DNA of 64,000 nt, taken from contig JACVRA010000420.1 of assembly GCA_019828545.1 (NCBI GenBank), positions 48,977 through 112,976 of the forward strand, in the 5' to 3' direction. The notes under the pieces are model-generated. The model saw only the letters and a list, made by a program, of their open reading frames with translations, was not told where the DNA came from and did no database searches. Each line of letters begins with the position of its first letter. The first letter of the stretch is position 1. The stretch is from Paracamarosporium sp. OC-R06-R3 (taxonomy: Eukaryota; Ascomycota; Dothideomycetes; Pleosporales; Didymosphaeriaceae). The translations under genes and the position numbers were made by a program. This document shows, in pieces, positions 10,291 to 54,833 of the stretch.

Positions 10291-13200
10291 TCACATCTTC
10301 ATATTCTCCGCAATAAGCTTATACTCCTTCCTCTTCTTCCTCCACTTCGGATTCATCCTGACCTTCGCCAGCCCAATCCACTTCGCCAGAACAGGCAGCA
10401 CATACTTCTCGCCCGCGTACGCGACGACGAAGTTGCCGAGGCCCAGCACAAGCAGGAACACCTTGAAGCTTACGCTCATGGCCGTCAGTTCCATGAACTT
10501 GCTGAGCCACTGCGCAGGGTCGAAAAGCATGTAGCATGTGACGACGAGTGCGAAGAGGATGGTGACGACGAAGGGCAGGTTCTGCGACATGGGCTGCCGG
10601 AAGGGCTTTCCGACTGAGAGCACCACCGCGGAGAGCGTGTACTGGAAGCAGGAGACGAGGAAGAGGGCTGTGTTCTGCGAGTTGAGAGAGTTGGAGTGGT
10701 CCTTGTCTACGACCGGGGGCTGGTACCAGGGCTGCTTCTGCACGTAGTCGTAGGCGATAGCTTGCGTGAGGATGCAGAGTACTATTTGTCCCAGCAGCGG
10801 CGTTAGTACCTTGCGCGACACCAAACTAGCCGTAGGTCGTTTGCGGCTCAGCTGTGGAAAAGCGCCGGACCAACCCATGAAGATAGCGATTGGCAGGATA
10901 AGCAGAAGGTCGATGAATAGGAATTGGAAGTCACCAAGATTAGACGCGGATGCGTAGAGGAAGCTAACGGAGGTGAACTGGATGGCCGAGTACAAGCTCA
11001 TGTACTTGAAGCAGCTGAAACTGGTGACGAGGGCGGCACGTCCTTCTTTGATGACTTGCGGTACGCACGAGATATCGAAGACGCGGCTGGTGAACGGCGC
11101 TGCGACTGAGGCTTCCGCTTCCGAGAGCGAGATGCCTACGTCGGCGGCTTTGAGAGCACCACAGTCGTTTGCGCCGTCGCCACAGAAGCCGGCACAGTAA
11201 TCAATGCTTTGCAGTTTCTCAACCAGTTCGTGTTTTTCGTCGGGCGACATACGCGCGAAGACTTGCCCACATACCAGCATCTCGCGCAAGACCTTCTCCG
11301 GCGCGAAGTCGATGATCCAGCGGAAGACGTCTCCACTAACAGCCAAAGAGTAGTTTCGGAGATTAGAAATATCGTAAGGGAGCGATACATCGGCTTCGGC
11401 TGGTGGAGGTAGAGGTTTCAGGGTATTTTCGTCCAGCTTGAACATAGGGTCGTCGACGCTCTCCCAACTAAGGCTCGCGAGTGCAGTCCTAGAATCTCCC
11501 TCGACGAAATGTGGGATGAAACAATGGGCAGTTCTGTTGACGAGACCACACTCCCTAGCAACGCTAATAGCCGTCAGGATATTGTCTCCAGTGCACATGA
11601 CGGTCCTGATGTTGGCCCTTTCCAACTCCTCGATAACAGGAGTTGAGGTCGGCTTCAGCTTGTTCTCGAAGATGATGAAGCCTACAAACTCCAGATTCTT
11701 CTCGGCTTCCTCTCGCTTCATTTTCTGCATCTTGAGCCAGTTGACTTTGAGAGTTTTTGTGGCGCACGCAATGACACGGAAGCCTTTGTGTGTGTAGAAA
11801 GACAAGAGCTCCTCATAATCCGTAGGGAAACTGTCAGCGCGGCAGATGTCTTTCATACATTCCGGTGCTCCTTTGACATAAACCTGCCCGGTCTTCGAAC
11901 CGAATTGGCGCACGATGACGCTTGCTCTCCTCAACTGGGACACAAATTCAAAAGACTTGAGCACACCAAGCTCGATGGGTTTCCTGTTCTCATCGTCCTC
12001 TTCATCATCGATATCGTACTCGCGGCCAGGGGGTGGCCTAGCAACAGAAGGTCGGAGCTTATCCTGCTCATCATCCCCGGCGCCAGCCCCTTGCTCTCCC
12101 TCAGTGAAGCTCCATCCAGTGAAGTTGAACATCTTGACATCCAGCGGATCACCAAGAAGCTCATCGTCGATCAGTCGTAAGGAATGGCAAGTGGCCATGG
12201 TATACAGTATGGCCTTGTGTTTTGCATAATCGACTGTGGGGTCCCGATCGTATCTCGAATTTGGAAGCACGTCGACATTCTCGGTAAGGATCTCACTGAA
12301 CCGGTTCGCCGGCCGTTCGACAACGCGCACTCCAAGCACGTCCAACCCCTCTTCGGTCAGAGTTCCCGTCTTGTCAAAGCAGACCACATCAAGTTTACCG
12401 CCGACATTCACTCGCTGAGGCGAGATACAGAAGATTTGCTTCTGCTTGAGTCGCGATAGGGCAAAATTAGTGCCAATAGTAAGCGTCGCAGGAAGCGCGG
12501 GTGGGACAACGATCGTGATCAGATCAAGCGCGCGGACCACGATCAAATGCCAAGCGAGGCCGAAGTGGATGAAGTTGATGAACGAAGCGACGAATCCTAT
12601 CATAGCGATACCTGCCATGACTGATATGTATCGGAAAGAGTCGCGGTAGAACTTGAAGCCAGAAGGCTTGGGGAAGAGCATCGATCGTACCAATGCGCCC
12701 TTTGTCGTGTTGAAACCGGTTCGTACTACCATAGCTAAAGCCGCAGCTTCTTCATCGCTGTCGTCTTCATGAGGTCTTCGAGCGCGAATAATCTTCGTTC
12801 CAGAAAACAGCATATGCCTTGCAATTTCCGGGTGAATCGTAGAAGCGCTAAGGTCGAGAACGTCCAATGCTTCGTCCGTCATAGGAATTTTAGACACAGG
12901 TACTGATTCGCCAGTAAGCATGCTCTCGTTGACGATGCAGTCTCCCGAGAGTAGCAGGCTATCGCAAGGAAGCTGGGTTAGGGATGGGTCTGTGACCTCA
13001 TAGACATCGCCTGGCACCAACTCTGCCGAGTCGACGGTGCGCCAGAAACCGTTTCGTAATACACGCACCTCGCATTCAAAACGCGATACTTCTCGCAATC
13101 GTTTCATCGTAGCTTTCGTTTCGATCACTGTGGCGGTTATGCTGACCACAGAAATGATAAAAATGCACGCAGCATAGTAGTAATACTCATCGACAGACCA

Positions 13201-14386
13201 AAGGAATAAACTTGCGATTTGGAAAACGTAGAACGGATTGATGACTTCCTCGACCAGCAGTTGACCGAGAGGCCTTTCGGCGAGGTCAATGAGGTTTTTG
13301 CCGAAGACCAACTCGCGATACTCGCGTTCTTCGGTATCGAGACCTTCGCGAAGCGCCGAGACATTCGTCCATAGAGGATCTTTCCAAGTGTTGGCCAGGA
13401 TGAATTTGTCCTTAAGCGGGTGGTAGCAGAAACGAATGTAGCGATAGTCGAGGCTGCGTAGCTGCTTCATAACAGGATCAAAGTCCTCGTCGTAATCTCG
13501 ATGGTGATGCTTTTCAGGATCACCAAAGACCGTCGACAGCGAGCGGCCATATTCCTGCTCTTCAATCTGCTGCACGGCAAATTCGCCCCATTGGTTTTCG
13601 ATGACCAACCACGAACATTCCTTGAGCGGCGCAGGTCGTCCTATCAGAGCCACTTTCCACCGTGGTAACCACTGAAGGACGAGCCATGCGAGCCCAACCG
13701 TGATGATACAGAGCATTGCATATATGCCAAATCCGACTGTTGACGTGTTGAAACCAGCCACGACAATGGTCAAATCTTCAGTCAGGATGTAGAGCTTTTG
13801 GTTCGTTCGCCGCCCTCTTGCACCATCACCCGAACCGGCGCTAGACACGGAGGACTGCCTGCGCAGCAAAGGCCGATCTACCGAGCTCCTCCTAGAGTAG
13901 CCAGAGGACTTGCGGCGCCTCTGCGACGGTGCAGGTGAACGCCCATTCTCCAGCTCGTCCAGCTCTTCCACGGTGTACCCATCATACTCAATGTCGCCAT
14001 ACTCCTCTGCAATGGCCTCTTCCTCGATACCCTCGTCTGAGTCGCGGTCCTCGTCGTAGTAGGTGAAGCTCGTGGTGGAGTCTGCGCGGGCGCGGCGGTG
14101 GGCAAACGAGGAAATGCTCGTGGGAACGCTCTCCGACATGGGGCCCGCGAACATCTTGATTGTGGTCGTCAGCTGCTGTTTCGATGTGCGGGGCGCGTTC
14201 AAAGGGCGGAGCTCTACCTCGTCCTGCGCCATCTCCACGTCCTCCATGAAGCTGGCCGCGCTGTGCCTGTCATTAGCATCGCCTACCACGCGACGAGTGA
14301 TGCGAAAAAGCATACTTGCTGACATTGGAGCCAGACCGGTACAGTGACCTCCTGCGGCGCCTCTCGGGGCTCCGATTGGCGTCCAT
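10291..14386 (-). CDS. YPK9: P5B-type cation/polyamine-transporting P-type ATPase
   Basis: Exons 14316-14386 and 10291-14266 give 1348 aa. The uninterrupted frame continues upstream of the real start, but a 49 bp intron (14267-14315, donor GTATGC, branch GCTAATGAC, acceptor CAG) leads to a better N-terminus beginning MDANRSPERRRRSL in a good ATG context. P5B membership rests on PPALPATLTIG in TM4 (P5A enzymes have PPELP), followed by CFDKTGTLTEEGLDVLGV with the phosphorylated Asp at about residue 654, MCTGDN, and CGDGANDCGALKAADVGISL. The N-terminal 200 residues are acidic and Ser/Arg-rich, then TM segments begin. Yeast Ypk9 and human ATP13A2 are vacuolar/lysosomal polyamine exporters, so the same role at the vacuole is expected. 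Length and motifs indicate an intact enzyme. Confidence 0.95.
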
Positions 14387-15649
14387 GGTGTCGACGCTGG
14401 GATATACACGCGACGAATTCAGGGCATTGTCGGTTGGAGGAAGAACTGGGATGCCCAGACGTGCCGTACCTGCGTCTGTGCAGCGATGACGATGTCGGAT
14501 GAACCTTGCAACGCTTATCGCACTTCGCTAATCTAGTCTGTTTAAGGAATAGTCGTCCCTTGCCGTTCACGACAGAATATTCGTTCAATTGCAAGTAAAG
14601 CGCGCTTGTTCTCATAATATATACCTTTTTAGAAAATTTTGGTAGCGAATTTATTGTCCTGGGTTCACCTAACTGTGTCGGTCATCCGGCCCAATGCACT
14701 GCCCAATCCAACACCTTATTTTCCACTGAAGCGTGCTCACGAAAAACCATCCCATGGGGTTTTATTGTGGTACTGTACACAATGAAAGTCGTGCTACATA
14801 GTGTTGTAGGGCTATCTCTATGACCTCAAGTTGTCGAGGAACGAGGAAGAGGATGCACCCTAAACGCTAATACCAGGAGAGGATGAACAGTCGTGTCCCT
14901 TCTATTCAAATTTCGGACCGTGTTAGCAAGAGTGCTATTCTACTTTTCAAATAAGAAAGGACTTCTGAGTCACACTCAACCTCGTATGCGACTGTTGTCT
15001 ACAGACCATTAATCACAATTGCGAGATGGAAATTGCACCATAAAACGTTATGACGGGTACTCCACGCGCACTATCCTCTTATATGGCTGCTATAGGTACC
15101 CCAAGGAACTATCTTCCTCTTCCTCTTTTCCTCTCCTAGCTACGATAATTACTCGCCTATTGCTGTGTAATAAGTTGGCTGAGAGGCAATCGGGGATAGG
15201 ATAGGCTTAGGACATGAGCTATTCCTAGGCTAGATAGCAGGATGAAAAGGGGAAGTCGGGGTTACTCCGAAGGAGCCTCAGGGGATCTCCTAAGCTAGGA
15301 GGATAATAGGAACATAGAACAACACCAACGGAAAATAGAATGCGTAGAATAACAATTGTACGATAGGCTTTCGATAGGATCAATCCCTACTTAACGCAGA
15401 TTTCTCCTGATACATGATCGACGCAGTCCAACTACACAACACTATAATGAGACTATCAGAGGGAGGGAATTATAACGTGTCGCAGAAATAAACACGTAAT
15501 TACAGCTCTAAAATTACATGATTTCTCCTTTTATATCTAGTATAGTTTTAGATCCTAATTACCTATTTAATAGGCTAAGCTCATCTTATCTCTACTATAT
15601 AGCAATAAATCAAACAGTGCTCGGTAGGCTGGACTTTCCTATAGTTGTC
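14387..15649. other. Intergenic region, AT-rich in its second half
   Basis: The first 300 bp hold the promoter/5' UTR of the ATPase gene. From about 15290 the sequence is strongly AT/TA-rich with no open frame, as expected for an old inactivated repeat. I see no gene. Confidence 0.4.
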
Positions 15650-16478: not shown

Positions 16479-19400
16479 ATGGCCGAACCTATCTTAATAA
16501 TCAGCCTGGTCTCTGGCATATTAACATTTGTGGACTTTGGTTTAAAGGTGTGTCAGGCATTGATAAACTACGAAACTCGACGACCAATGGAAAGTCAGAC
16601 GAGATCGACGAGCTTGATTCCTACATAGAAGATGTTCGCAATTGGAACGCAAAAGTGGTCAAAGAGCAAGCTTCTGGCTTAAACATCTCGCAAGATGATA
16701 ATCGAATTATCAATCTGGTACAGCAGTGTGAACAGTTAGCTAAGGAGCTTAGAACACTCGTCGTAACTTTGAAGATTCAGGATGGAACCATATTGGAAAC
16801 TGCGAGAGTGGCTATTCGAAGAAGACGGAAACATGACGATATTCAATCGCTACAGCTGAGGCTCCGAAATTTAGTCGGACAAGCCCGTGAGAGTGTTGAG
16901 CACGCATTGCAATTGTAAATGTTCCGTGTTACGTTCTAAATATAGACCCTACAGCGCCGGCCCAGATCTCGTGGTGAATTTGCGGTCTCGGAGCGTTTTA
17001 GTAGGGATAGTGGAGACCCAAACTATTTACCTCAGCCAGAATTAGAAGTTTTTCATCATCTAAACCTTTACAGTAAATCAAACTCATCAATAATGGCCAA
17101 ACTCAATCAGCTTCAAGCCTCGCAAGAGGCCGAAAAAATTCGTGATATATCACATCTGACGCGAATCCGGGAAGACATTCTCGACCTTGCCAAACAGAGC
17201 CAGCAAGACTTTCTGACGTGGGATCTAGCTCAAGAAGCCCGCCTTACCGGCTTAAGAATAAAGTTCGAGATGCTACAGAGAGAACAAGCTTTGTGTACTT
17301 ATCAGATCGAAGTGCTCAAGAGCCTTCACTTTCCAGAGATTCGTCGACGTTGGTACCAGATCAAGAAAGCAGACCAGCGATCTAATCAGTGGGTATACAA
17401 CCGTCAAGCAACCACGTTCCTGTCTTGGCTAGAAAGCACAGAGCCCAACGACGGTCTCTATTATATTACTGGTAAAGTATGTTCTTCTCGAGCTTGCGCG
17501 TGAGCCACCTTGCTAATCAACGCACAAACAAGGCCGGAAGCGGTAAATCCACATTAATGAAATCCATATTTGAGCACCCAGATACAACCCAGAGCTTGAA
17601 GGGTTGGGCCGGAGATTCGACGCTACACCAAGCAAGCTTCTACTTCTGGAACCAGGGGACCGACATGCAGAAAAGCGGAGTTGGACTTTTCCAGTCCCTG
17701 TTATACCAGATTCTCCGATCCTCTCCAGATCTCATCCAATCTGTCTGTTCACGCCGCCTGCATTACGAGTCTTGGACAATAGAAGAGCTACACGAGACGT
17801 TTAAACGCATCGAGAAAGAAACCCAGTTGGGTGCTAAATTCTGCTTCTTCATTGACGGCCTCGATGAATACGATGGCGAGGAGAAAGATATTAATCAGCT
17901 CCTGAAATCTTTATCGATATCTGGGCGTATCAAGATATGTGTGTCGAGTCGACCGGGGCGACAATATGAAGCTTTCTTACAACGATACCGTCGATCTTTC
18001 GACATTGCCCACTTCACTCGAGATGACATGCGTTGGCATATTAACAAGAGTCTGGAAGAAAGTGTAAACTGGAATGATCTGGTCGCTTCGAGCCCTGTCA
18101 GCTGTCAAGAAATTATCGAAGAGATCTCTGCCCGAGCGAACGGAGTTTGGTTATGGGTTTCTCTCGTCACAAGCGACATTGTCAAAGAAGCCGACAAAAA
18201 TGAAAAGGTTGAAACACTGCGTGAAATCCTCGCTCAGATACCAGAAGATCTGGAAGATTACTTCAAGCTCATGATCAGGAAGATCCCGAAGCATCATCGT
18301 GAAGACATGGCACGCATCTTTCTTATCGCAGTAGAAGAAGTACAACCTCTACCACTGTATGCTTTCGCATTGCTTGAAAAAGAGAAGGAAGATAGCAATT
18401 ACGCTATAAATGTGCCCATTGAACCAATCAACAAGGCAGATGTCGAGCTGGAATATCCTGCTCTGAAAAATCGCATCCGGAACCGCTGTAGCGACCTCCT
18501 TGTTGTAGACGATGAACCGCATCCAGTGTTTCTGGAACACTCAGTCGATTTTCTTCATCGAACTGTTCGTGACTTTCTTCGGGATTACGACAAACAACTA
18601 AGAGAGCATTTGAAAGATAAATCGTTTGACCCTCTAGTGTCTCTGAGTAAAATTTGCCTTGGCTTACTCAAGGCGTTGCCTGTTCAAAACTTTCGGGATG
18701 TTCAAACTATAAACAAGATCATCGGAGTGACCGATGAGCTGCTTTATTATGCTCGAGAGGCCGAGATGAGATGCAAGGACGAGGTATACACGTCGCTGAT
18801 CTCAATGTTGGACGAGCTGGAGAACGTCAACACTCACCACGCGCGTAATATCAACAATCACTGGACGCATGCAAGAGATTCTCCAAAACCCCGGGGATTT
18901 GACAATTATAGAGAAGGCGGAAAATGTAATTTCCTCGCTCTGACTGTGCAAGCTCGCCTAGTCAAATACGTACGCGCAAAGCTACAGGAAAACCCGAATG
19001 CTGCAAGTAAACCGGGAAGACCGTTACTGGACTACGCACTTCGACCGCGAAGGGTAACGCCGATATCTATGCCATATCACCACATCAGAGATGACCCGAG
19101 CGTTAGCACCGACATGGTGAAGATGCTGCTGTCTTCAGATATAAGAGCCGACCCAAATCAACCTGTCCGTCTCAACGGAGATCGCTCAGTCTGGGCCTTG
19201 TTCCTGTTATCTATTAACGAGACTCATGATCGGGAAACCAAGAATGGTAGCATGACCTATCAGAGCCTCAATGAAGCGTGGTATGATACCTGCAAAAACC
19301 TCATCCGCGCTGGTGCACGATCAGATTGTCTGTCTGTTGGTGGTCGTGACTATTCGACTGGATACAATAGCACGGAACGCATGGAAGCATCCTTCATACT

Positions 19401-19497
19401 TAAACACGTCTTTGGCAATGTTCGAGCTGCTATATTGATTCGAGAATGGGCGGAGCAAGAATCGCAGGCATCAGAAAACAATTGTGGAGTCATGTAA
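16479..19497 (+). CDS. NACHT-type STAND (NLR-like) protein with C-terminal CaaX motif
   Basis: The ATG at 16479 opens a typical fungal STAND N-terminus (MAEPILIISLVSGI...DFGLKV). The continuation (SGIDKLRNSTTNG...) is in a different frame from 16550, so the two disagree by one base. Coding then runs 16550 to about 16894, about 16955-17476 and 17533-19497. The intron 17477-17532 is clear (GTATGT, CTAAT, AAG). The one before it is less sure: the acceptor at 16954 is good, the in-phase donor GTTGAG is weak, and the better donor GTAAAT at 16915 breaks the frame. The intron 2/exon join creates the P-loop ITGKAGSGKSTLMK; Walker B is FFIDGLDEYDG. The C-terminal half has no WD40, TPR or clear ankyrin array. 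The protein ends NNCGVM, a CaaX prenylation motif. STAND ATPases act as signal-triggered switches, in fungi often in incompatibility cell death. This copy could be a pseudogene or carry a sequencing error at the start. Confidence 0.8.
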
Positions 19498-21305: not shown

Positions 21306-22255
21306 TTACACCTCCGTAAGCACCGTCTCCTTGAACTCCCGCTCAACCTGTGTTATATTAGCTCCACTGTTCAAGATTGATAGATATAGGTTTCCGTACC
21401 TTCTGGCCGGAGTCATCCTGGCTTGACTCGCCGTGGAGACCGAGGAGAGCGCCCAAATCGAACTTGGGCTGCTTGAGAAGCTTGAGCTTGCGGACGTGGA
21501 TCTAGGTTGTGTTAGCCCTAGTCTCTGGACATGCGCTTTCAGATCATCACGTACGTTCTGGAGGGGGTAGATGCCCTGGGTGGCCTTCTCAATCTCGCGG
21601 CCAATGACCTCGGGGATGAGCTTTTGGGTGAGCTGAGCAAGGGAGCAAGAGCTGGCCTCACGGGTCATGATCTCAGTCATCTTCTTGCGGATCTGCCTGA
21701 TCTGCGACGAAGCAGCGTAGGTAGTCTTCTTGATCTGGTTGGGTCGTCGCTTGGTGAAGGCGATGGCGAAAAGACGGACGAGGTAGTCATCGGTGGTCTT
21801 GACGACGACGTTGGCCTCGATGAGGGATTGCCACTTGCGGACGAGGGAGCGGAGCTTGTCGGAGGTGAAGTCGAGGCCGTGGAAGTTGGTCAGGCAGTTC
21901 CTGCCCTGGACCTCGTCGACGCGGAGCTTGACCTTGCGGAACGAGTGGTCCTCATCCTTCTGGAGGTCCGCGAGGGAGACCTCGAATATCCGGCCCTTCA
22001 GCGCATCGTTGGCGTTCTTGAGACCGGAGGTACGGTTGACGAGGGTCTTGCCGACGCTGTAGGAGGAAAAAAACTCAGTATGCTGTCCATTGAAATGTGC
22101 GCAGGCGGGTAATGTCGTGGCGGGGAGTCTTACTCTCGGACCTGGAAAGTGCCAGGAGCCTTGACGTTGTACCAGTCCTTCTTCGCGAAGGTATCGGTCT
22201 TCTTCTTGAGACCCTTCTTGCCCTTTGAAAGACGCTTGTTCTTGCCGACAGCCAT
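21306..22255 (-). CDS. RPS1: 40S ribosomal protein eS1 (S1e/S3a)
   Basis: Four exons on the minus strand: 22134-22255, 21555-22056, 21400-21501 and 21306-21347, total 768 nt, 255 aa, the usual size for eS1. Introns are 77, 53 and 52 bp with standard GT-AG ends. The protein starts [20 protein letters not shown] and has a lysine-rich N-terminal tail, the core with [20 protein letters not shown] and [19 protein letters not shown], and the C-terminus [20 protein letters not shown]. It belongs to the small-subunit head/platform region near the mRNA exit. Multiple introns at the 5' end are typical of fungal ribosomal protein genes. Confidence 0.97.
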
Positions 22256-23511
22256 GGTTGCGATGGGGTGGAAGGGCTGTTCTGGTTGTGTCGTTTAACA
22301 AGAAAGTGCGACCTTCGAAAATCTGCTAAGCGAGTGGTGTGCGCGCACGGACCGCATCACGTGCGCCAAGCAATTCCGGGTCTTCAGCAACGAACATCGC
22401 AACTGATTGCATATTTTTCCAACGGCACACTCGAATCTGCCCATTGCTTATGCTATGTTACCTATTCATCTACTGCAGTCAACATCTCCATTCATTGGAT
22501 TGCCACCACCAGACCGGAGGGTGTCCTTCCCCGCACCGCAAAATCTAATCGCAGTTTCGCCACAACGGTGTGGTTGGGTGTCGTTGCTTTGATGCTTACC
22601 ATCCTATGCACATGTCCTTAGCCATTGTGGCCAGGCCATACTCGTGTCAGACTCTTTGAAGTAGCTTGTAGCACCACTTGGAAGAGCTAGCATGGCGAAC
22701 ACAGAATGCGGCTCCAGAACGGCCATTCAACATACTAGAGCACTTAGCGACATGTTGAGAAGCATATCCCACAGCGACCGACTAGTCCGAAGTAAAATCG
22801 CGGCGTACTCGGGTAGATGTTGTTAATGGTATCGTACTGAACTACCCTACTGAGTCAACATAGGACCACTACTGAGACACCATTCTTCGAGGAAGCTGCG
22901 GATTCACACACTTTCGGCCAAGTATTGAGCTTTATGTTATCTTTTCATTTCTAGCTGCATAAGCTATGTCTCTTTCCTCGCGACTCATTCATGTTGGAGC
23001 CCTGTCCCGCTACTCTCCTGGTTCCCACCGCTAGTCTCGCTTCTCGCCTCGCTACTTCAATCCTCCCACAGACCACCAGCCTTGCACGCCTCTCTGTCGC
23101 ACACCGAAACTTCTAATTACTGAGTGACGTGGCAGTCAATCCGGAATGCCGATCGGCATCAAACTATCGAAGCGACTGCACGCTGTAATCCGTGGCTTTT
23201 CCTTCGACCCTCTCTCGTCTGTCGGTGTCCGCCCGACTGCTTTGAGCTCAAGTCATCTAGTTCCTCCTCGTCATCTTTCAGCAGGATTTGACACGCTTTT
23301 CGTGGCCTTCGCTGGCGTTGAAGCAGTTACATGGTCCTTCAATTGCCAGTAAATGGCTCGGTTCTCTGTCCGTTGGGGACTGGTTCCTCTACTGGCTTTT
23401 CTTTCCTCGATAAAGGAGTGGCGGCATTCTGGGGTAATCCTCAATGGCCATTGTGATCATGTTCTTGATCACGTTCTTGTTGAATTGCATCGTTTGGGTA
23501 ACACAGTCAAG
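22256..23511. other. Upstream region of eS1 and 3' flank of the next gene
   Basis: About 1.25 kb with no supported coding sequence. The part next to 22255 is the eS1 promoter and 5' UTR. Frames in 22268-22621 and 23146-23610 show no domain or coding bias. Confidence 0.4.
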
Positions 23512-32890: not shown

Positions 32891-35800
32891 ATGGCCATGC
32901 CCATGTCCTCAGTGTTTACTGGGCCCGAGCGCCGCAAGAAGGTCGTGACCTACGGGCGAGCGACACGACCCAGCGCCGCCCCAGTATTCACAGAAGACCC
33001 GCCGTCGCCTGAGCGTCCGCGCAAGCAGGCGGGGAGACTCCCCGGGGCGTCGCAAAAGCCCGGAGCAGCCTCAGGGGCCAAGGACGCGTCCGATGCTTCA
33101 ACCACGCGTCGCCAGCAGTCGCCGGCACCTCTCGACGAGTTCGACGTACCGTCCGATAACGAGCCCACGCCTCGCGCTGCCCCGACCAAGAAGTCGCTGC
33201 ATAAGCCTCCACCGAAGCCTGTAGACGATTTCGACGTCTTCGATGTGCCTTCTTCCGGCGACGAACGAACAACAACAAATCATGGGAGAGAGAAGGCAGC
33301 TCAATCGCTGCGAAAGGCCAATGCGACGCGAACCAAAGTGCCTGCGCAACATGTAAAGGCGGCAGAAAAAAAGCAGGTTGCAGCAGTGCCTTCGGGCGAT
33401 TCCCACACCACAGCAACCTCGGCGGTACGGGTACGAGCGAAGACTCCTCTGGCTGTTGCGAAGCCCACGTCCACCGTGCCAGCAAAAGCGGTGAAGCAAA
33501 ATGCCCCGCCATCCAAAGCCACCTCACGACCGGCAGCACCTGCTCCGCCAGCTGCAATCAAGCAAAAGAAAGCAAAACCTACTCCAGCTCCTGTGGTCAC
33601 GAAGTCAGTACCAACACCACCGACTGAACCAAGCTCGGATTTTGGCGTATTCGATGTCCCCTCTTCTGATGATGAGATGCCGACGCAGACCCCCGTAAAA
33701 CCGCGTAACGCACCGATTGCACACGCAAAGGTACCATCAAAACCGTCCACATCACGGACGCCACTCTCACCAGAACCTTCGGCCGAATCCGATACGTCCA
33801 ATGCTTCCCACAAGCGCAAACGAGATGTCTCTGCATCGTCATCCGTGACGGTGAAGAAGTTGGATCCTACACAGAAGAAGAGGGAAGCGACCGCACCCCA
33901 GCGGGGCAGGAAGTATCAGAGGACCGAGGATAGCGTATCGCCAGGCCATGGTGCGAATGAGCGTCCGCAGTCAACCCTTGTGGCCGTGATCCATGACCCT
34001 CCAATCAACAAGCCGAAGCGCACAAACGCACGTACTGTCCCAGTCATCTCAAGACCTACGATCGCGAAAGCACAATCCTCGCCAGTCAAGCTTCACAATA
34101 TGCTTGATGAGCACTCAGCGACAAAATGGACAACTATACGAAAAAATCCTGAAGCACCAATTGCCGAGGACGAAACTATGTACGACATCCCAGAGGAGGC
34201 GACGCCTCTTGCGCGGGGCGTGAAGGCGGGCATGCCAGGTTCTGTGACACCACGTCAGCGAGATCTGTTCAGTAATTTATTGGAGGACGGTTCGGATTTG
34301 ACAACGCCAATGCCAAGCATATCAAAGCTTCGACTCACCGATCGAAAACCGGGCTCTGCTATTGCTGCGTTGACAAGGTCGTCGTCCGATATCCCTCAGT
34401 CTGCACATACGCGAAAGGGGAGGCTCATTGATATGCTCAAGCGGGCTGCTCCAAGCTCCATCGAAGAGAGCGAAAGCGACGGAGAATCGGAGGATAGCAC
34501 AGAGAGTGCAACCGTGCCGGCCGTGCCAGCCGTGCCTCGGCCCGTGGCCGTTCACCATGTTGCTTCTCAAGAGGTAGTGGAGGCGATGGATATTGATCCG
34601 GATACTCAGGCAAGCTCACAGACTTCGCGGGCGCCTGTTCCCATAATGGAGGGTTCTCGGACCTACGCCCAGCAGAGATCTTATCTTGAAGAGTCTAACC
34701 TCGAAGATGGGCTGTTGAATTGGGATGAGGACATTGACATTGACCTGACTGATAGGCAGGGCTCCGTCACTGGCAGCGAAGATGACTCGCAACAAGTGAC
34801 TGGACTTCCCGAACTTCGTCGCAAGGGACAGCTTTACAAATTCGAAGCAGAGACCCAGGCCATTATCGAGGACATATCTGGGAAAAGCAACACGAACATT
34901 TCGGCACGGCGTAGTGCAATGATAGAGTTCGCTTCGCAGATGGCCGACGAGAGCTATGTCAACCAGCTGCTAGAGTCAGCAATGACCTCCTCGTTACTCC
35001 GAGCCATCTCCGCTACTGGAGATATGATTTTTGACTTCGCAGCAGCTGTTGCTATACTGTTCATGCTCAGAACAAAACCGAGCTACGCCGTAGTAGAACA
35101 CATCTACCAGTCTGATATTCTGTCGACCTTGCAGAAGCTTCTGTCGTCGCCCATGTCGAGCTTCGATATATACCGCATCTCAAAGGACAGAAAGACGAAC
35201 ATGGCTGCCAGTGCCCGAGAGACAGTGGCAGAGTTTCGAACGCTTATCTTGAAGACTCTTGACTGGCCTGCGGAAGACGTGAGTAAGCTGTCGCCGCAAC
35301 TCTTGGCTATCAAGGTCCTAGAAGAGCTAGTTATAGGGCTCCGGAACCCTGGTAACACAGAGTCCATCATCGATGAGGACATGATCAGCAAAGTTCTCGA
35401 TGTAGCGGCTAGCCCTGTACAGAACCTGCGGTCAGGGAAGGCAACCGCACAAGATGACTTGATTATAGAGACAGCATTTTCCGCACTTGAGTCACTGTCG
35501 ATATCCAAGGACGGCCAAGCCACCTGGCCAGACGAGGTCCTCCGACGACTGGCTGGCATGATGTCTGCTTTCTTCGACACCACACGTTCATCGCCAATCA
35601 GGCTCGTCATCCGACTCTGCATGAACCTAGCCAACAGCCGGCCTCAAGCCTGTGAAATCTTCGCAGACCACACCTTCGTTACCCGCCTCACCCGTTTCAT
35701 CGTGGAATGCTTCAAGCTGCTTGGAGATAACACGAGCCAGCAGCAGTCGACGCGCGTCCGAGACGACCTCATCCTCGGCCTGGGCGCTATGATGAACCTC

Positions 35801-36253
35801 GCAGAGTTCAGCGACCAAGCCCGCCTGTGCGTGATCACGGGAGGTGATGAGACGCTCAGCGACCTCGTCCGCATCTTCCTCGAGGGCTCAGAGCGAGCCG
35901 ATCGCGTACGTTACCCCGTTCCTCATCCCCAAACATCCATCCATCCGCACACAGACAATCTAACTAACACCCTCCAGGCCGACTCCGTCGAAGAATCCCA
36001 CGCCCTCGTCCCCATCGGCTACCTCACCATCCTCCTCGGCAACCTCTGCCTAAACGCCCAGGTCCGCCGCAAAGTCGCCGCCTTGCTCCCAGGACACGAC
36101 ATCGCGCTGCTCGTGCAGAAGATCGGCGAGTTCGTGAGGTATAACCAGCGGGTCGATCAGGCGGAGTTCGAGGGCGCCGAGGGCAGGCGCACGTTGAGGA
36201 ATTTCACCGTCAGGCTTATGCTTGTTGTGGAGAGGTTGGAGGGGAAGGTGTAG
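32891..36253 (+). CDS. WPL1: Wapl/Rad61-type cohesin release factor
   Basis: Exons 32891-35905 and 35978-36253 give 1096 aa. The 72 bp intron (GTACGT, CTAACTAAC branch, CTCCAG) is a multiple of three and lacks stops, so the unspliced frame is also open. Residues 1-600 are disordered and basic, rich in Pro/Ala/Ser/Lys, with three repeats of the form FDVPSSDDE (about residues 80-90, 117-126 and 250-262) that look like short interaction motifs. The Wapl helical domain (about 620-1090) begins LRRKGQLYKFEAETQAIIED and includes LLGNLCLNAQVRRKVAALL. Wapl proteins with Pds5 open the Smc3-kleisin gate and release cohesin from chromatin. The N-terminal FDVPSSD repeats could be the docking elements for Pds5/SA; that part is inference. 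Confidence 0.9.
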   Translation: MAMPMSSVFTGPERRKKVVTYGRATRPSAAPVFTEDPPSPERPRKQAGRLPGASQKPGAASGAKDASDASTTRRQQSPAPLDEFDVPSDNEPTPRAAPTKKSLHKPPPKPVDDFDVFDVPSSGDERTTTNHGREKAAQSLRKANATRTKVPAQHVKAAEKKQVAAVPSGDSHTTATSAVRVRAKTPLAVAKPTSTVPAKAVKQNAPPSKATSRPAAPAPPAAIKQKKAKPTPAPVVTKSVPTPPTEPSSDFGVFDVPSSDDEMPTQTPVKPRNAPIAHAKVPSKPSTSRTPLSPEPSAESDTSNASHKRKRDVSASSSVTVKKLDPTQKKREATAPQRGRKYQRTEDSVSPGHGANERPQSTLVAVIHDPPINKPKRTNARTVPVISRPTIAKAQSSPVKLHNMLDEHSATKWTTIRKNPEAPIAEDETMYDIPEEATPLARGVKAGMPGSVTPRQRDLFSNLLEDGSDLTTPMPSISKLRLTDRKPGSAIAALTRSSSDIPQSAHTRKGRLIDMLKRAAPSSIEESESDGESEDSTESATVPAVPAVPRPVAVHHVASQEVVEAMDIDPDTQASSQTSRAPVPIMEGSRTYAQQRSYLEESNLEDGLLNWDEDIDIDLTDRQGSVTGSEDDSQQVTGLPELRRKGQLYKFEAETQAIIEDISGKSNTNISARRSAMIEFASQMADESYVNQLLESAMTSSLLRAISATGDMIFDFAAAVAILFMLRTKPSYAVVEHIYQSDILSTLQKLLSSPMSSFDIYRISKDRKTNMAASARETVAEFRTLILKTLDWPAEDVSKLSPQLLAIKVLEELVIGLRNPGNTESIIDEDMISKVLDVAASPVQNLRSGKATAQDDLIIETAFSALESLSISKDGQATWPDEVLRRLAGMMSAFFDTTRSSPIRLVIRLCMNLANSRPQACEIFADHTFVTRLTRFIVECFKLLGDNTSQQQSTRVRDDLILGLGAMMNLAEFSDQARLCVITGGDETLSDLVRIFLEGSERADRVRYPVPHPQTSIHPHTDNLTNTLQADSVEESHALVPIGYLTILLGNLCLNAQVRRKVAALLPGHDIALLVQKIGEFVRYNQRVDQAEFEGAEGRRTLRNFTVRLMLVVERLEGKV

Positions 36254-48391: not shown

Positions 48392-50064
48392 TCATCCGAT
48401 GCTGTCTGCAGCACACTCTAAAACGTCGACAACTTGCTCGCGAAATGCTTGCTGCAATCTTAGGCCATTCTTGTTGTCATCGTCGACATCAAAATCTCCC
48501 GTCAAACAACGGACGACGAGCTGCGTGTATTTCTCTCCAACTTCTCGTGGCAAAGCTTTGTTTGCCTTCTTGACCAAGTAGTCTTGGATCGTCCAAGGGT
48601 CAGTCACGTTCTTAAACCCAGCTCGTTCGAGCGACAGCACAGGCCGCCATAATCCAATTTCCAGAAGTACGACACCCAGACCATAGATATCATGGACTTT
48701 CTGGAAGCGTTTCTGTGGCCGATTTTGCCGTTCGGGGTGGCGATAGACGTTACGGGCAGGATTAATGTCCTGTCGTCCAGAGGAGAAGTCGAGCTCAGGC
48801 CTGCTGAATTCGAAACCCATTACCCATGGTTGAGCAATCGACAATCTCTCTTCCGTGTCCAAGGTCTCCCCATATTTCAAGCACCGTGGAAAGAACACGA
48901 TGTTCTCACTCCGGAAGCTCTCGTGTACCCATTCTACAAGTTGAAGTCCACTTATTGAACTGGCCAAATGCTTTGCCAATCGAAGTCGCTCGCCCAACGT
49001 CGGTCGAATCTTCTTCGAGTCGTAGAGTTGGAGAAGACTGTATGGCACTCCTTCCATGCCATCTGGGATTTCGAAGAGGAAGGCCACTCTGTTGAACCGT
49101 GGATCCAGGTTCCATCCTTTGCAGCTCAAGGTACGAAATGCCACGTCTTTCTGCTGACCCAATAGATGAGCGAGTAGCTCTATGCGGTTGCGTGTACGTT
49201 CTTGCAGCGGTACAGGCTCCGTCCGTTCGGGCGCATAGCTTCGAAATTCAACGAGCGAGGCCGATCCTGGCAGCTCGACCATTGCAAGTCCCCCAACGGC
49301 AGAATTCAAAGCTGCCAATTTTCTGAACAAAATCTCATTCTTGATTTCGAGGCTCGTCGAGACGGCTTGTAACCCGGTCGTTGTCAGGTGGAGCTGTGCT
49401 GGCAAGTTGTAACCGAGCTTCTTCGAATTCTCGTCGTGCGCAAGACGGTCAAGGTGTTTCAAGTTTACGCCTACGCTACTTGCGTGACACAGAAGCTGCA
49501 CTTGGATGTAGACCTTATCATTCGATTTAGTAAAGTTGTTGATGATGGATTGTAGCTTTTTCTTTTCCCAGAGTGCCCATTTCAGACGTATCCGGGGGCT
49601 GCTTTTTCTCTTGATCATCATTCCTGTGGGGGGAGTCAATTCGACGCGAGCCGCACTCAACGTAAGATCTGCTGAACTTCCATATTGATGTTCCTCAAGT
49701 AACTCCACAGCCTCTTCAATAATCTTAAGAACCTTCTTCTGTTGGAACACAATTTGACACTGCACGTCATAGTGAAACTGCATAAATAGGCATCGGCCAT
49801 TGTATGCAATAGCAGGCTCAAACAGTAAGCATTTGAGTGTCCTAGTACGATCATGCTCCTCTATCACCTGGCGTGCCAACTCTTCACTTTCCTACAAGCG
49901 TTTCAACTCAATAGTCAGCTATGAAAGGCTAAGCGTGCGTGTTGAGAGTAGTGGGCCCGACCTACCTCATCAAAGTTTCTGTAATCACCAATGACCTCGG
50001 AAGCCTTCTTTGCGACCTTGCATACGAGATCGAAGACACCAACTGCTACCCCAGCGGTGTCCAT
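48392..50064 (-). CDS. HeLo-like domain plus pseudokinase protein
   Basis: Exon 1 is 49966-50064 (33 codons, MDTAGVAVGVFDLVCKVAKK...), then a 74 bp intron 49892-49965, then exon 2 48392-49891; 532 aa. The N-terminus (residues 1 to about 200) is helical, starts with a Gly/Val-rich amphipathic segment and resembles the HeLo/HELL cell-death domains of HET-S and related fungal proteins. The C-terminal half (about 260-520) is kinase-like but lacks catalytic residues: where HRD is expected there is HESFRSENIVF, and where DFG is expected there is MGFEFSRPE. YRHPERQ, DIYGLGVVLLEIGLW and the C-lobe helices are kept. Family knowledge: HeLo is related to the four-helix bundle of MLKL, which also precedes a pseudokinase. 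Divergently transcribed from a kinase-ankyrin gene 462 bp away. I am sure of the pseudokinase-like half, less sure of the HeLo label. Confidence 0.75.
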
Positions 50065-50526
50065 CTCGGACAGCGCACAATTCTGCCGAGTGAAACCTTG
50101 CGGAAGGGAGTATAGACGAGGTACGAATCCTTCTTAAGCTCCTTTTGACGTGTTGCACCAGGAGATGCGAGAAAGTGGCCGAATAATTGTCTCTCAGGAA
50201 GGCTAGATTGGTGATGATGGGCTGACGAATGACGAAATAGAACGAACGGGGCGCTGGACATTAAAGACGCGAACTTGATGTAGCCTCATGTAACCGCTGT
50301 CGATAGTGTCAGCCGTGGGGTCCGAGATTGATTGATCGTAGGCGGCCAGCCACATACCCCGCCCTCAGCCTCGTGTCCACCCGAAGCACCTGAAGGACCG
50401 AGTTTTCTCTAGAACTCGACCCTTAATCTGCACAGAATCATGCTAGTGACCAGGGATGTCGAAGTTTCTGCCGTGAGGTCTCAATCCTGGTTGAACAAGG
50501 CTCCGCTGACAGGACCGTATTAGAGC
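50065..50526. promoter_or_regulatory. Divergent promoter of the pseudokinase/kinase pair
   Basis: 462 bp flanked by ATGs on both strands and without coding sequence, so both genes probably share control. No TATA box or known factor site could be singled out. Confidence 0.5.
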
Positions 50527-53500
50527 ATGTACTCAGCCTCAATTCCATCCACGCGACGAACGGTAGATAGCCTTCAATCGTCACGATTCAGCTTGAGCGC
50601 TACTACAAAGCCTCAGGCTCAAGGACTACAAGACATCATTGAGACTATCCAAAACTTGAATCTCGAATTCTACCCGCATAATGAAATTGAACGTGGTGAT
50701 TCAATCGGAGAAGGCGAGACCTTTTGGGTTGAAAAAGCCAAAACTAAAGGGAAAGTGATGGCCATCAAACGTTTAAAGATATCCAGCAACTCGCGAGAAG
50801 AGTTCATCCGCCGGATTCAATCACTTCTCCTTGAACTACAGATTATGCATCATGGACCACTCAGAAATCATCCCAACATTCTCACTTTACTAGGCTGGGG
50901 CTGGAATACTTCAGGTGCCAGTGTTCTTCCATACATCCTTGTGGATTACTGTTCAGGAGGAAACCTGCGCCAATATCTCGTAAAGAGCAGATCCAGTAAG
51001 GGATACACTGCATCTTATGGCCCAGAACGAGAGGCTATACGACACAAAGAACTTTTCATGGCAGATATAGCTGCCGGAATTCAAGCTCTCCACACCACAG
51101 GCATTATACACGGAGATGTTAAGCTCGAAAACGTGCTAGTGTCTGATTTCGACGAACGTCGTCGTTGTCCTACTGCCAGAGTCTGTGACTTTGGGCATTC
51201 AATCGTCAAAGGACCAGAAAGGGAAAACGGAAGTTCTGGTACATACAGAGGAACAATCCGGTAGGTGCTAGACTTTACGTGGAGTGGTATCTCGCTAAGT
51301 TATTTGAAAGTTACCATGCGCCAGAGATCATACAGCAGAAGGCAAAACCTTTTGACCAGATGGAGCTAAAAAAGTGCGATATTTGGGCGTTCGGACTTCT
51401 AGCTTGGGAGATCCTCCTTGATGGTGCGTCATACACCGATAAATTAGCGATTGACATCATGGAAATCGAGACCAAACCCGGCGAGGATCGACAGCTCCTT
51501 TCAAGCGCCGTCACATCAACACATATCAGTTATGACCCAATTCAAAGAGCCATTTTCAAAGACGTCTTGAAGGGTACATTACAGTACGAGCCTCACATGC
51601 GTATTAATCAGCTCGACTCTCTGCTCATTATGAAGAAATGGAGGTAAGTACAGCGGCGTACAGAATGGGTTTGTGCCTTCTTTGACAGCCTGCGCAAAAC
51701 AAATTGGTCGTTGGAAGTAAAGATGGGCAATCTTCTTCTTCTCGCTGACACTATTCCAGGACTACAGGCACAACAAATCTCGAAGCCCAATTGGCTCTGC
51801 ATAGCGGTACATCTGAATGGTCTTATGAGGTGAGTCGAGATGCGGTAGATAGATTTTTAGGTATCAATACTAAATCGTGTGCAGATTTTTCGCCACGACA
51901 ACGACCGTGAAATTTTTTGGATCCATAAATCACACATCGCGGAAAACTTCAAATCTGCTTTCGAAAGCCAAAGTGGTGACGAAATTGTAGAAGGATCAGC
52001 TGCATGGCAGCTTGGTTGTTGTTACGCTACTGGATTCGGGGTACCGAAGGAGTGGAGAAAGGCCGATGAATATTTTGAGCAAGCGGTTAAATTGGGAAGC
52101 AAGGTTGCGCAGAATTTCGGCCCAATGCTACTTAACCAAGGTTTCGGACACGAGGGCAAGACATATCGTGCCACTATTCAGCGAATGCTCTCTCTGGACG
52201 AAGTTCCTGTAGGCATGATGTTCGATCAGCGTCAGGATATCATCTCAATACAGACCGTTACTAGCCAGCCGCTTAGCAAGACCTCACCGATGGTTGATGA
52301 GGCTGTACGGAAAGGATACGCCAAGGCTATCGAAGATATGTCTGCATCCCATTCATGGCTCAAGCTTGACTATAAGGAGCCACCTATTACTCAAGCCTTG
52401 CGCACCGGAAACCTGAGGGCTGTGTGGGCATTGTTGTACTGGGGTCTTTCCCCAGACAAAACCGATGAGAGCGGCCGCAATATGTTCCACTGGCTCTTTA
52501 TGATCGATGACGACGCAATGACCTTCGCAGAAATTTTCTTAAAGCAACATGGAAAGGTCCGTTCGAGAACTCTCAACCAGTCCGCATTTCGGACCATGAG
52601 CGTTCATCCTCAGTGGCCTCTACGACTATATGGTACACCTCTAATGCATGCCATTGCTACCGGAAGCAGAAACACAGTCGCTGCGTTACTGAAACTTGGA
52701 GCAGATCCCTTAACTACAAGTCGCACCGAGAATGACATACGTAGTGAAAGACATTGGACAGCTATGCACACCGCTGTTGAGTATCACGATGCAGATATAT
52801 TGAGTCTGCTCAATGGAACACTTACGGAACGCGCTGTATTCATAAATTTAGACTACCTGACGGCCTTGTCCTCAGCTACGGTTTTTGAACGATTTGCGAT
52901 GCACGGTCGGAATGGCACGAGAAATTTACACCGCGTCATCCGGATGTTCGAACGACCAGAAATAGATAATACTACGGATGGTCCTGGAACAGCAGAACAA
53001 AGTTCTTTAATTTCCACAGCCCAATCAGATCTATCATCCCTCGTATTGTCGTTAGACATTGATGACCTTATGGTCAGCGAGGCACTACTTGATCTAAATT
53101 CGAACCATGCCAGATCACTTTATGTCCTCTACTCTAGAGGCACCTCAATCTCCAGCTACCCCATCCATCATGCGATTCAAATGGCCTCCCAAAGAGACGA
53201 TCCAAATGCACTGGCGGCTGTGGAACTTGTCTTGAAGCATGACCCACATGGGCTTTCCCGGGTGGATAGCTCAGGCCGAACATGTCTTCATGTAGCGGCA
53301 ACTGGATTATCTTCTCATGTTATAAAATTCATTGCTGAACGAGACATTTCTTTACTCCATGCAAAAGACAACCAAGGCGCATCGCCCATACACTATTGCG
53401 AGTCAAACACGGTCCTCGAGCATCTCGCATCTTTAGGGGCACACTTAGATGCAACCGACAAGCAGGGAAGGTCCCCCATTTTCTATGCTGCCAGTAAAGG

Positions 53501-54833
53501 TTCGAGCAAGGTCGTGGACGGACTTTGCAGGTTGCATGCCGTCACTGACGCGCCCATGAGATCACCCTGGAACCCTCTGCACATGGCGATAATGCATTCA
53601 AAATTCGAGATAGTGACCTGCCTTATCGCATACGGAGCTCAAGTCAACCTCAGGAACACCGCTGGAAACACGCCACTTCACATTGCAGCTCGACGGTCCT
53701 CCCGATACGAGCTGCAATTACTGCTTGACAAGAATGCAAATATCTCCGTTAGAAACAACGTAGGCCAATATCCATTGCACATCGCTGCTGCATGGAACAA
53801 CCTGGCTGCTGTCGAATTATTTTCAGAGTACATGCCAGAACACATATTGTTAGATGCTGGAACGGAAGACGATGTCCGTACAGGAATACCGCGCTCACCG
53901 CTCTGTATATGCGCAGAACGCTCATATTTCGAGGCAATGCAGACAATGTTATTACGGCTGAATAAATGCGACGTTGAAAAACGAGACCGACACCAACGAA
54001 CCGTAATCCATTATGCTGCTATGGTTAAAAACACTCCCTTGATTTTGTGGTTGATGACATGGAGGGTCAACATTGACGCACGTGATGAGAATTCCGACAC
54101 TCCTCTCTTGAATGCTATTTGCAGTAGCTTTCCCGGTGATACCTTGGAAGTGTGTAGAACTTTGGTAGAATCTGGGGCTTCTGTCACTGCACGCAACCAC
54201 AAGGGTGAATTCGCATGGGATATGGCTTTCAAAACAAAACGCACTGACGTAATGACATACTTGCTATCACATAGTTCATCAGCATGTCAATGCCTCACGT
54301 TGATGGAGAATTTGTTTACTCAAGAGAACTCGACTTCATCTGCAGTCGAAGAGGTTGATGCAGGATCATCAGAAGAACTCACCGAATTTTCCACCGATAA
54401 AGTGTATGAAGCACAGGAACGCAAGGCCAAGCATATAAGGAGGCGCTGTGAACATAAATTAGTGCGAATGGGTATTGAGGAGTCGAATAAAAGCCTTCTG
54501 TTAGCGCTGAAGTCACGGTTGCAAGATATGGAAAATTCAGCAAGGAATAGGGATCAAGCACGACAGTACCGGACCATTTTGAATAGTATGCAGGACGCCC
54601 TTGAGCGTTTGAACTCTAATCCATGGTCAAGATTAGGAGAACCCACAAACGCATGGCTTCGGAGTGGTTGGCTTGGTCGCGATCCAGTGTTTGAGCGGGT
54701 TCCCTATCATGGCCAGGCAAGAGACGTTCCACTTACTGGTAGATGGAACTTCGAGGAACCGCAACCCCTTAACAATCCCGAAGAACTGCGCGTCAGAGCG
54801 AGAAATATTCTCAGTCGCCTGATAAGACGGTAA
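50527..54833 (+). CDS. Protein kinase - Sel1 repeat - ankyrin repeat protein
   Basis: Exons 50527-51260, 51311-51643, 51760-51829 and 51885-54833 give 4086 nt, 1361 aa. The kinase domain (about 55-350) has Gly loop SIGEGETFWV, Lys in VMAIKRLK, catalytic loop HGDVKLENVL (about 195, Gly for Arg in HRD), CDFGHS (about 221) and YHAPE, so the catalytic set is present. A Sel1-like repeat follows (about 417-455, LGCCYATGFGVPKEW...). Ankyrin repeats extend from about 545 to 1190; clear units include GRTCLHVAATGLSSHVIKFI, GRSPIFYAASKGSSKVVDGL, GNTPLHIAARRSSRYELQLL and GQYPLHIAAAWNNLAAVELF. The C-terminal 170 residues are charged and helical. Kinase-ankyrin proteins (for example RIPK4 in animals) are signalling kinases with a sensing/scaffold tail. 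The gene is paired head to head with a HeLo-like/pseudokinase gene. Function otherwise unknown. Confidence 0.9.

Follow-up and report, generated by a model that had tools for sequence, protein, structure and literature searches.

A head-to-head pair of a HeLo-type pseudokinase gene and an ankyrin-repeat kinase gene as a candidate RIPK3–MLKL-like module of filamentous fungi

Our analysis of a 64,000-nucleotide stretch of the genome of Paracamarosporium sp. OC-R06-R3 (contig JACVRA010000420.1; the whole stretch is called the window here) revealed a head-to-head pair of genes on opposite strands: HLK on the minus strand, encoding a HeLo-type helical domain and a pseudokinase, and KANK on the plus strand, encoding an active-looking kinase with ankyrin repeats (both names were coined in this work). 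The pair points to a fungal counterpart of the kinase-to-executioner step in animal necroptosis, and we assign a probability of about 0.55 to the reading that HLK and KANK form one functional sensor-kinase/executioner module working like RIPK3–MLKL. Demonstrated below are linkage, recurrence, near-congruent trees and fusion proteins, together with the domain composition of the two proteins and the catalytic motifs that are intact in KANK and lost in HLK. A first-pass annotation of the window had placed the two starts 462 bp apart on opposite strands, as they are from start codon to start codon, and had proposed a candidate fungal RIPK–MLKL-like module; linkage and domains support both the module claim and this architecture.

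HLK matches Pfam DUF7580 (PF24476) with 28.2 bits, above the cut-off of 27, and the family was found at E≤0.001 in 33 of 36 HLK homologues. At the HRD site the 36 homologues read HES (31) or HKS (5), with Asp in none, and at the DFG site GFE (28), GFD (4), GYE (3) or a gap (1). The first-pass reading of a kinase fold without HRD and DFG in the minus-strand protein was correct, with HES standing for HRD and GFE for DFG. GFE is also the triplet given for the DFG site of MLKL in passages of PMC6013482. Judged by sequence, MLKL is the closest solved relative of HLK: with a profile of the HLK family, four MLKL sequences took ranks 1 to 4 among PDB sequences (E 1.7e-4 to 1.6e-3), while phmmer with the single HLK sequence gave 0 PDB matches at E≤1. 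In a Foldseek search with the AlphaFold2 model of full HLK (pTM 0.80), the plant protein AtMLKL3 (PDB 6ka4) took rank 1 of 1196 over 586 columns (E 2.8e-6). In the activation loop, residue 403 is Ser in all 36 homologues and aligns without gaps with the loop of mouse MLKL that holds the RIPK3 sites; Ser403 is the best candidate phosphosite. These results offer a testable role for DUF7580, a name that was not found in the full-text literature searched (most subscription papers lie outside its coverage).

By profile comparison, the N-terminus of HLK is HeLo-related. In hhalign, its profile matched five HeLo sequences, taken from loci to which HLK has no match, at 93.4% (E 2.6e-7), and the reversed and five column-shuffled controls reached at most 0.6%. 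HeLo was detected at E≤0.001 in 21 of the 36 homologues by a Pfam profile search, and in 8 of the 36 according to the precomputed Pfam column of the database. Paralogues at two other loci of the source genome exceed the Pfam HeLo cut-off (C114, 27.2 bits; C47, 71.8 bits), and the HLK at a third (C24) has a sub-threshold match, as in the window. A PDB sequence search with the C47 paralogue listed GCN2 first and HET-s (2wvn) at E 0.36. Long helices are predicted in the AlphaFold models of both full HLK and the N-terminus alone. The helical HeLo-like N-terminus of the first-pass annotation thus stands by profile and by predicted helices, though not by structure search (see below).

KANK exceeds the Pfam cut-offs for Pkinase (107.8 bits) and Ank_2 (170 bits). 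Over 20 homologues, HGD and DFG are present in all and the VAIK Lys in 18 (gaps in the other two), and judged by these motifs the kinase looks active. The Lys, HGD, DFG and APE motifs and the ankyrin array previously noted in the plus-strand protein are confirmed, whereas its Sel1 repeat is a sub-threshold match (17.2 bits, cut-off 30.7). Among PDB structures the kinase appears generic, with VEGFR2 and FGFR first and no RIPK in the best 60 of 679. Pfam scans gave no NACHT or NB-ARC match in KANK and no RHIM match in either protein of the window pair. Over 13 HLK/KANK pairs (defined below), a RHIM-like core was matched once in an HLK and once in a KANK. An amyloid or RHIM link between the two proteins was considered and rejected, as motif and shuffle comparisons gave it no support.

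The arrangement recurs within the source genome. A search with HLK returned 16 rows at 14 loci, and 8 of these loci (the window, C24, C114, C264, C31, C47, C32 and C38) are divergent within 2 kb of a kinase, compared to about 0.04 expected (binomial P ~8e-18); the distances are those separating the matched stretches, contig ends are close to some of the loci, and paralogues do not count as independent cases. The kinases came from a capped general list, for which 122 of 266 candidates were scored (136 rows, 112 loci), and from three KANK-type kinase places found in a separate KANK search; with the general list alone, 5 of the 14 loci are paired (P ~3e-10). No kinase of these lists lay within 30 kb, on the same contig, of any of 13 control loci (8 of 14 with DUF7580, 5 of 9 with HeLo), although the general list missed the window KANK kinase itself, so that kinases near control loci could be unseen. 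Frames with repeats adjoin or follow the partner kinases and share their strand, with ankyrin repeats at C24, C47 and C38, WD40 at C264 (in the same frame as the kinase) and TPR at C38 (after a second kinase); the scanned pieces at C31, C32 and C114 gave kinase-type matches only. Where kinase and repeats occupy separate frames, they presumably belong to one gene. The catalytic motifs of the partner kinases are intact by eye wherever the exon was seen (the first C38 kinase only in part), with DLG for DFG at C32, and the HLK partners at the paired loci lack the first Asp of DFG.

Kinase and DUF7580 also occur in one protein. At C198:6412-8709, a kinase match and, apart from it, a DUF7580 match share a single 766-aa frame. 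Eleven matches of the HLK protein search carry a precomputed Pkinase domain; of the eight scanned, five combine an N-terminal kinase with a separate C-terminal DUF7580 match, which is above the cut-off in P0085, P0090 and P0091 and just below it in P0084 and P0087. In P0091, a weak HeLo match lies between the two domains. The kinase and DUF7580 matches overlap in P0069 and P0082, and P0088 has no DUF7580 match. Because kinase and pseudokinase are sometimes fused in this way, these proteins support a probable functional link of HLK and KANK.

Protein searches gave 97 HLK and 65 KANK matches, and a third search with a KANK alignment (18 matches, E≤1e-60) added Fusarium denticulatum and also drew in vertebrate and insect ankyrins. 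Twelve other assemblies hold matches to both proteins. Rare adjacency in related genomes had been named in the first-pass annotation as a result that would refute its proposal, and it is not what we observe: the layout recurs at seven further loci of the source genome, and in 11 of the 12 assemblies both matches lie on a contig of the same size, namely Bimuria (319246 bp), Periconia macrospinosa (49481), P. digitata (2891359), Plenodomus tracheiphilus (356963), Cenococcum geophilum (417302), Rosellinia necatrix (1779776), Akanthomyces lecanii (27246), two assemblies of Bathelium mastoideum (382439 and 3522188), Gaeumannomyces tritici (6703616) and Fusarium denticulatum (112937). A shared contig is weak evidence of linkage at chromosome size and strong evidence for contigs of 27 to 420 kb. 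In the twelfth assembly, Trichoderma viride (ACHAQJ), the matches lie on separate contigs and the HLK match is distant (P0079, 29% identity over 53%). In 4 of the 11 assemblies the locus tags of the two genes can be compared, and they are consecutive in three (LLEC1_03547/03548, M1822_004662/004663, M1821_004405/004404); those of P. macrospinosa (DM02DRAFT_676715/502175) are non-consecutive on a contig of only 49 kb, and JGI locus numbers of this type are not known to follow gene order. Divergent orientation was read in the source genome only. Many matches in either list lack a counterpart in the other, which gives no count of absence since search depth and 90% clustering limit both lists. Overall, HLK-type and KANK-type genes are adjacent far beyond chance.

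Quick trees were built for 13 pairs, i.e., the 11 from other assemblies, the window and C24. The HLK and KANK trees have 8 of 10 splits in common, compared to at most 4 in 10000 label permutations, and a Mantel r of 0.84 that was attained in 0 of 10000 permutations; common species history alone raises such agreement. Both trees nest Cenococcum, a dothideomycete, among Rosellinia, Akanthomyces and Gaeumannomyces (support 96 and 100), and both group C24 with Fusarium denticulatum (support 96 and 100); Rosellinia, Akanthomyces, Gaeumannomyces and Fusarium are sordariomycetes. Since both trees hold groupings unexpected from the species tree, the pair was apparently duplicated or transferred as one unit.

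In a mechanism of the RIPK3–MLKL type, KANK would be the activator and would sense a trigger through its ankyrin array (in some relatives, WD40 or TPR repeats), upon which its intact kinase would become active. HLK would be the executioner, held silent until its GFE pseudokinase docks with KANK or is phosphorylated on the activation loop, with Ser403 as the best candidate site. The HeLo-type helical domain would then be set free to oligomerise and insert into the membrane, and the hyphal compartment would be killed or walled off within defence or non-self recognition. Phosphorylation of HLK by KANK, its site, the membrane attack, the death and the trigger are what we infer from the observations above.

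Like animal RIPK3–MLKL, the pair combines an active kinase with a distinct executioner protein that joins a four-helix-type domain to a pseudokinase, and the GFE triplet, the best solved sequence match and the apparent register of the loop serine extend this likeness. In contrast to the animal system, the partners are neighbouring genes and the sensor repeats sit on the kinase; nor does the window pair have a RHIM-like core. Plant MLKL proteins such as AtMLKL3 also join a HeLo-type domain to a pseudokinase, and we know of no kinase gene partner for them. Passages of a 2025 review (PMC12881547) describe a fungal necroptosis-like death in which NLRs and amyloids drive HeLo effectors, and mention two- or three-gene HeLo/HELL clusters, such as het-S/nwd2 and HELLP, in which a HeLo effector adjoins a repeat-bearing sensor gene, as here. 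Those sensors are NLRs that act by amyloid templating, whereas KANK is a kinase without NACHT/NB-ARC match and no motif shared with HLK was found. The same passages mention HELL domains in kinase and pseudokinase proteins, the architecture of HLK, but name no kinase partner, gene pair or DUF7580 for them; they also describe fungal gasdermin and protease pairs, in which the executioner likewise adjoins the gene of its activating enzyme and the enzyme may carry WD40, TPR or ANK. There, a gasdermin is proteolysed, whereas here a kinase is proposed to act on a HeLo-pseudokinase protein. Amyloid motifs occupy non-equivalent positions in the mammalian and fungal pathways according to passages of a 2017 review (PMC5485727).

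Judged by titles and abstract starts, an active-kinase/HeLo-pseudokinase pair is not described in the literature searched, and the passages of PMC12881547, PMC10197012, PMC9815663, PMC7889193 and PMC5485727 that were available do not mention one. The view of the first-pass annotation that such an active/dead kinase pairing is undescribed holds for the pair within the literature searched, but HeLo-pseudokinase fusions as such are already in print (PMC12881547). If our reading is correct, the conserved pair supplies the kinase-to-pseudokinase step for fungi, the origin of the RIPK3–MLKL logic can be tested in a kingdom amenable to genetics, and a sensor class of kinase plus ANK, WD40 or TPR repeats joins the fungal immune repertoire.

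Several results weigh against a RIPK3–MLKL-like module. The MLKL sequence match spans a single stretch of 56 positions. The HLK and AtMLKL3 domains are not arranged alike, because their superposition is poor overall (TM 0.36/0.36, rmsd 15.8); c-Met, at Foldseek rank 2 (E 3.5e-6), is close to rank 1, and VIA-align placed BRAF first, with MLKL not among the best 50 listed. Window HLK stays under the cut-off of Pfam HeLo (PF14479; 17.9 versus 23.2 bits), and its N-terminus folded alone, although helical, gave no match at E<1 in a PDB structure search, with HET-S and MLKL not among the matches listed, an absence that excludes neither. Six of the 14 HLK-related loci lack a head-to-head kinase (C198, with its fusion, is among these), and the paired HLK at C32 retains Asp at the HRD site (HKD). 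A motif scan of the window pair for the RHIM-like core [IVL]Q[IVLM]G was negative, and a comparison of KANK N-termini with HLK for a shared amyloid motif was no better than shuffles in the 12 of 13 pairs tested (one with a partial KANK was left out).

The same observations could be read in other ways. The HLK pseudokinase could turn KANK on or off as a scaffold or allosteric partner, in the way that STRAD acts on LKB1, with the HeLo-type domain serving to oligomerise or anchor it in ordinary signalling without death. This would cover the active/dead pairing, the co-inheritance and the fusions without any membrane attack, and it would suit the HLK N-termini at C264, C31, C32 and C38 (4 of 8 paired loci), in which HeLo was undetected, a further point against our reading. 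However, the domain was detected in most of the orthologous family members (21 of 36), and the HeLo/HELL domains in Table 1 of PMC12881547 target the plasma membrane and kill; we therefore regard a purely signalling role as unlikely. Still less likely is a guard/antidote pair in which KANK restrains HLK, and killing is released once KANK is lost, inhibited or not inherited along with HLK. Head-to-head pairs with near-congruent trees would be expected for it, and it would accommodate the KANK paralogue at C111:233943-235589 (59% identity over residues 2-247, near a contig end), which has no HLK in the 1.5 kb upstream and none on C111 in the HLK search: a lone restrainer would be harmless, whereas for a sensor-executioner module this gene is an awkward finding. 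But HLK-related genes without a listed kinase within 10 kb also occur (C213, C23, C75, C139 and C305), and the intact kinase motifs of the KANK homologues fit activation at least equally well. Linkage through a bidirectional promoter or chance neighbourhood alone, with no physical or enzymatic connection, is strongly disfavoured: divergent pairs a few hundred bp apart are, as is generally known, common in compact fungal genomes, but linkage across Dothideomycetes and Sordariomycetes, the 8 loci, the near-congruent trees and the fusion proteins speak against it.

Extending the RIPK3–MLKL-like reading, filamentous fungi might hold a repertoire of NLR-independent death receptors (ankyrin, WD40 or TPR kinases), each head-to-head with its own HeLo-pseudokinase executioner, as a fungal kinase-to-MLKL arm of necroptosis that possibly shares ancestry with animal MLKL and is not convergent. 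This wider picture is tentative, and we lean slightly against it.

Gene structures are predicted, with splice sites set from reading frame and GT-AG rule (Table 1). The closest orthologues are both from Bimuria novae-zelandiae: P0001 for HLK (532 aa, 82% identity over 100%), which reads through the same exon junction, and P0098 for KANK (1391 aa, 65% identity over 97%). Judged by these relatives, the source genome is probably pleosporalean. Residue numbers of HLK motifs follow P0001, which is identical in length. The 462-bp intergenic region is a probable shared promoter.

Table 1. Predicted features of the HLK/KANK locus (positions in the window)
Feature	Position	Strand	Description
HLK gene	50064-49966 + 49891-48392	-	532 aa, one 74-nt GT-AG intron
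HLK exon 1	49966..50064	-	residues 1-33, helix 1; ATG at 50064, GT donor at 49965, frame continues into exon 2
HLK intron	49892..49965	-	74 nt, GT-AG
HLK exon 2	48392..49891	-	residues 34-532 and stop
HeLo-type helical domain of HLK, remainder	49376..49891	-	~residues 34-205
DUF7580 pseudokinase domain of HLK	48395..49363	-	~residues 210-532
HES at HRD site of HLK	48917..48925	-	residues 356-358, without catalytic Asp
GFE at DFG site of HLK	48809..48817	-	residues 392-394; triplet found in MLKL
Ser403 of HLK activation loop	48782..48784	-	candidate phosphosite
Intergenic region between start codons	50065..50526	.	462 bp, divergent
KANK gene	50527-51260, 51311-51643, 51760-51829, 51885-54833	+	1361 aa, three GT-AG introns
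KANK exon 1	50527..51260	+	N-terminus and most of kinase: VAIK Lys, HGD, DFG
KANK exon 2	51311..51643	+	APE motif, C-lobe
KANK exon 3	51760..51829	+	GT-AG splice rule
KANK exon 4	51885..54833	+	weak Sel1 match, ankyrin repeats, C-terminal tail

Two of the unpaired HLK-related loci have further features. At C305:2135-4015, a 627-aa pseudokinase ORF has an N-terminal part in which no caspase-type Pfam match was found; to our eye this part presumably resembles the caspase-type LLLLDCCYA motif rather than HeLo. At C139:46788-49650, a same-strand frame that resembles WD40 repeats by eye comes after the HLK-related frames.

Elsewhere in the window, an NLR-like gene with NPHP3_N/NACHT-type and DUF7791 matches (17479-19497, plus strand) lies about 30 kb from the HLK/KANK pair, and a further protein kinase gene (7290-9095, plus strand) about 40 kb from it. 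Conserved ordinary neighbours are genes for a P5-type ATPase (10291-14409, minus strand), a ribosomal S3Ae-family protein (21306-22301, minus strand) and WAPL (32891-36253, plus strand).

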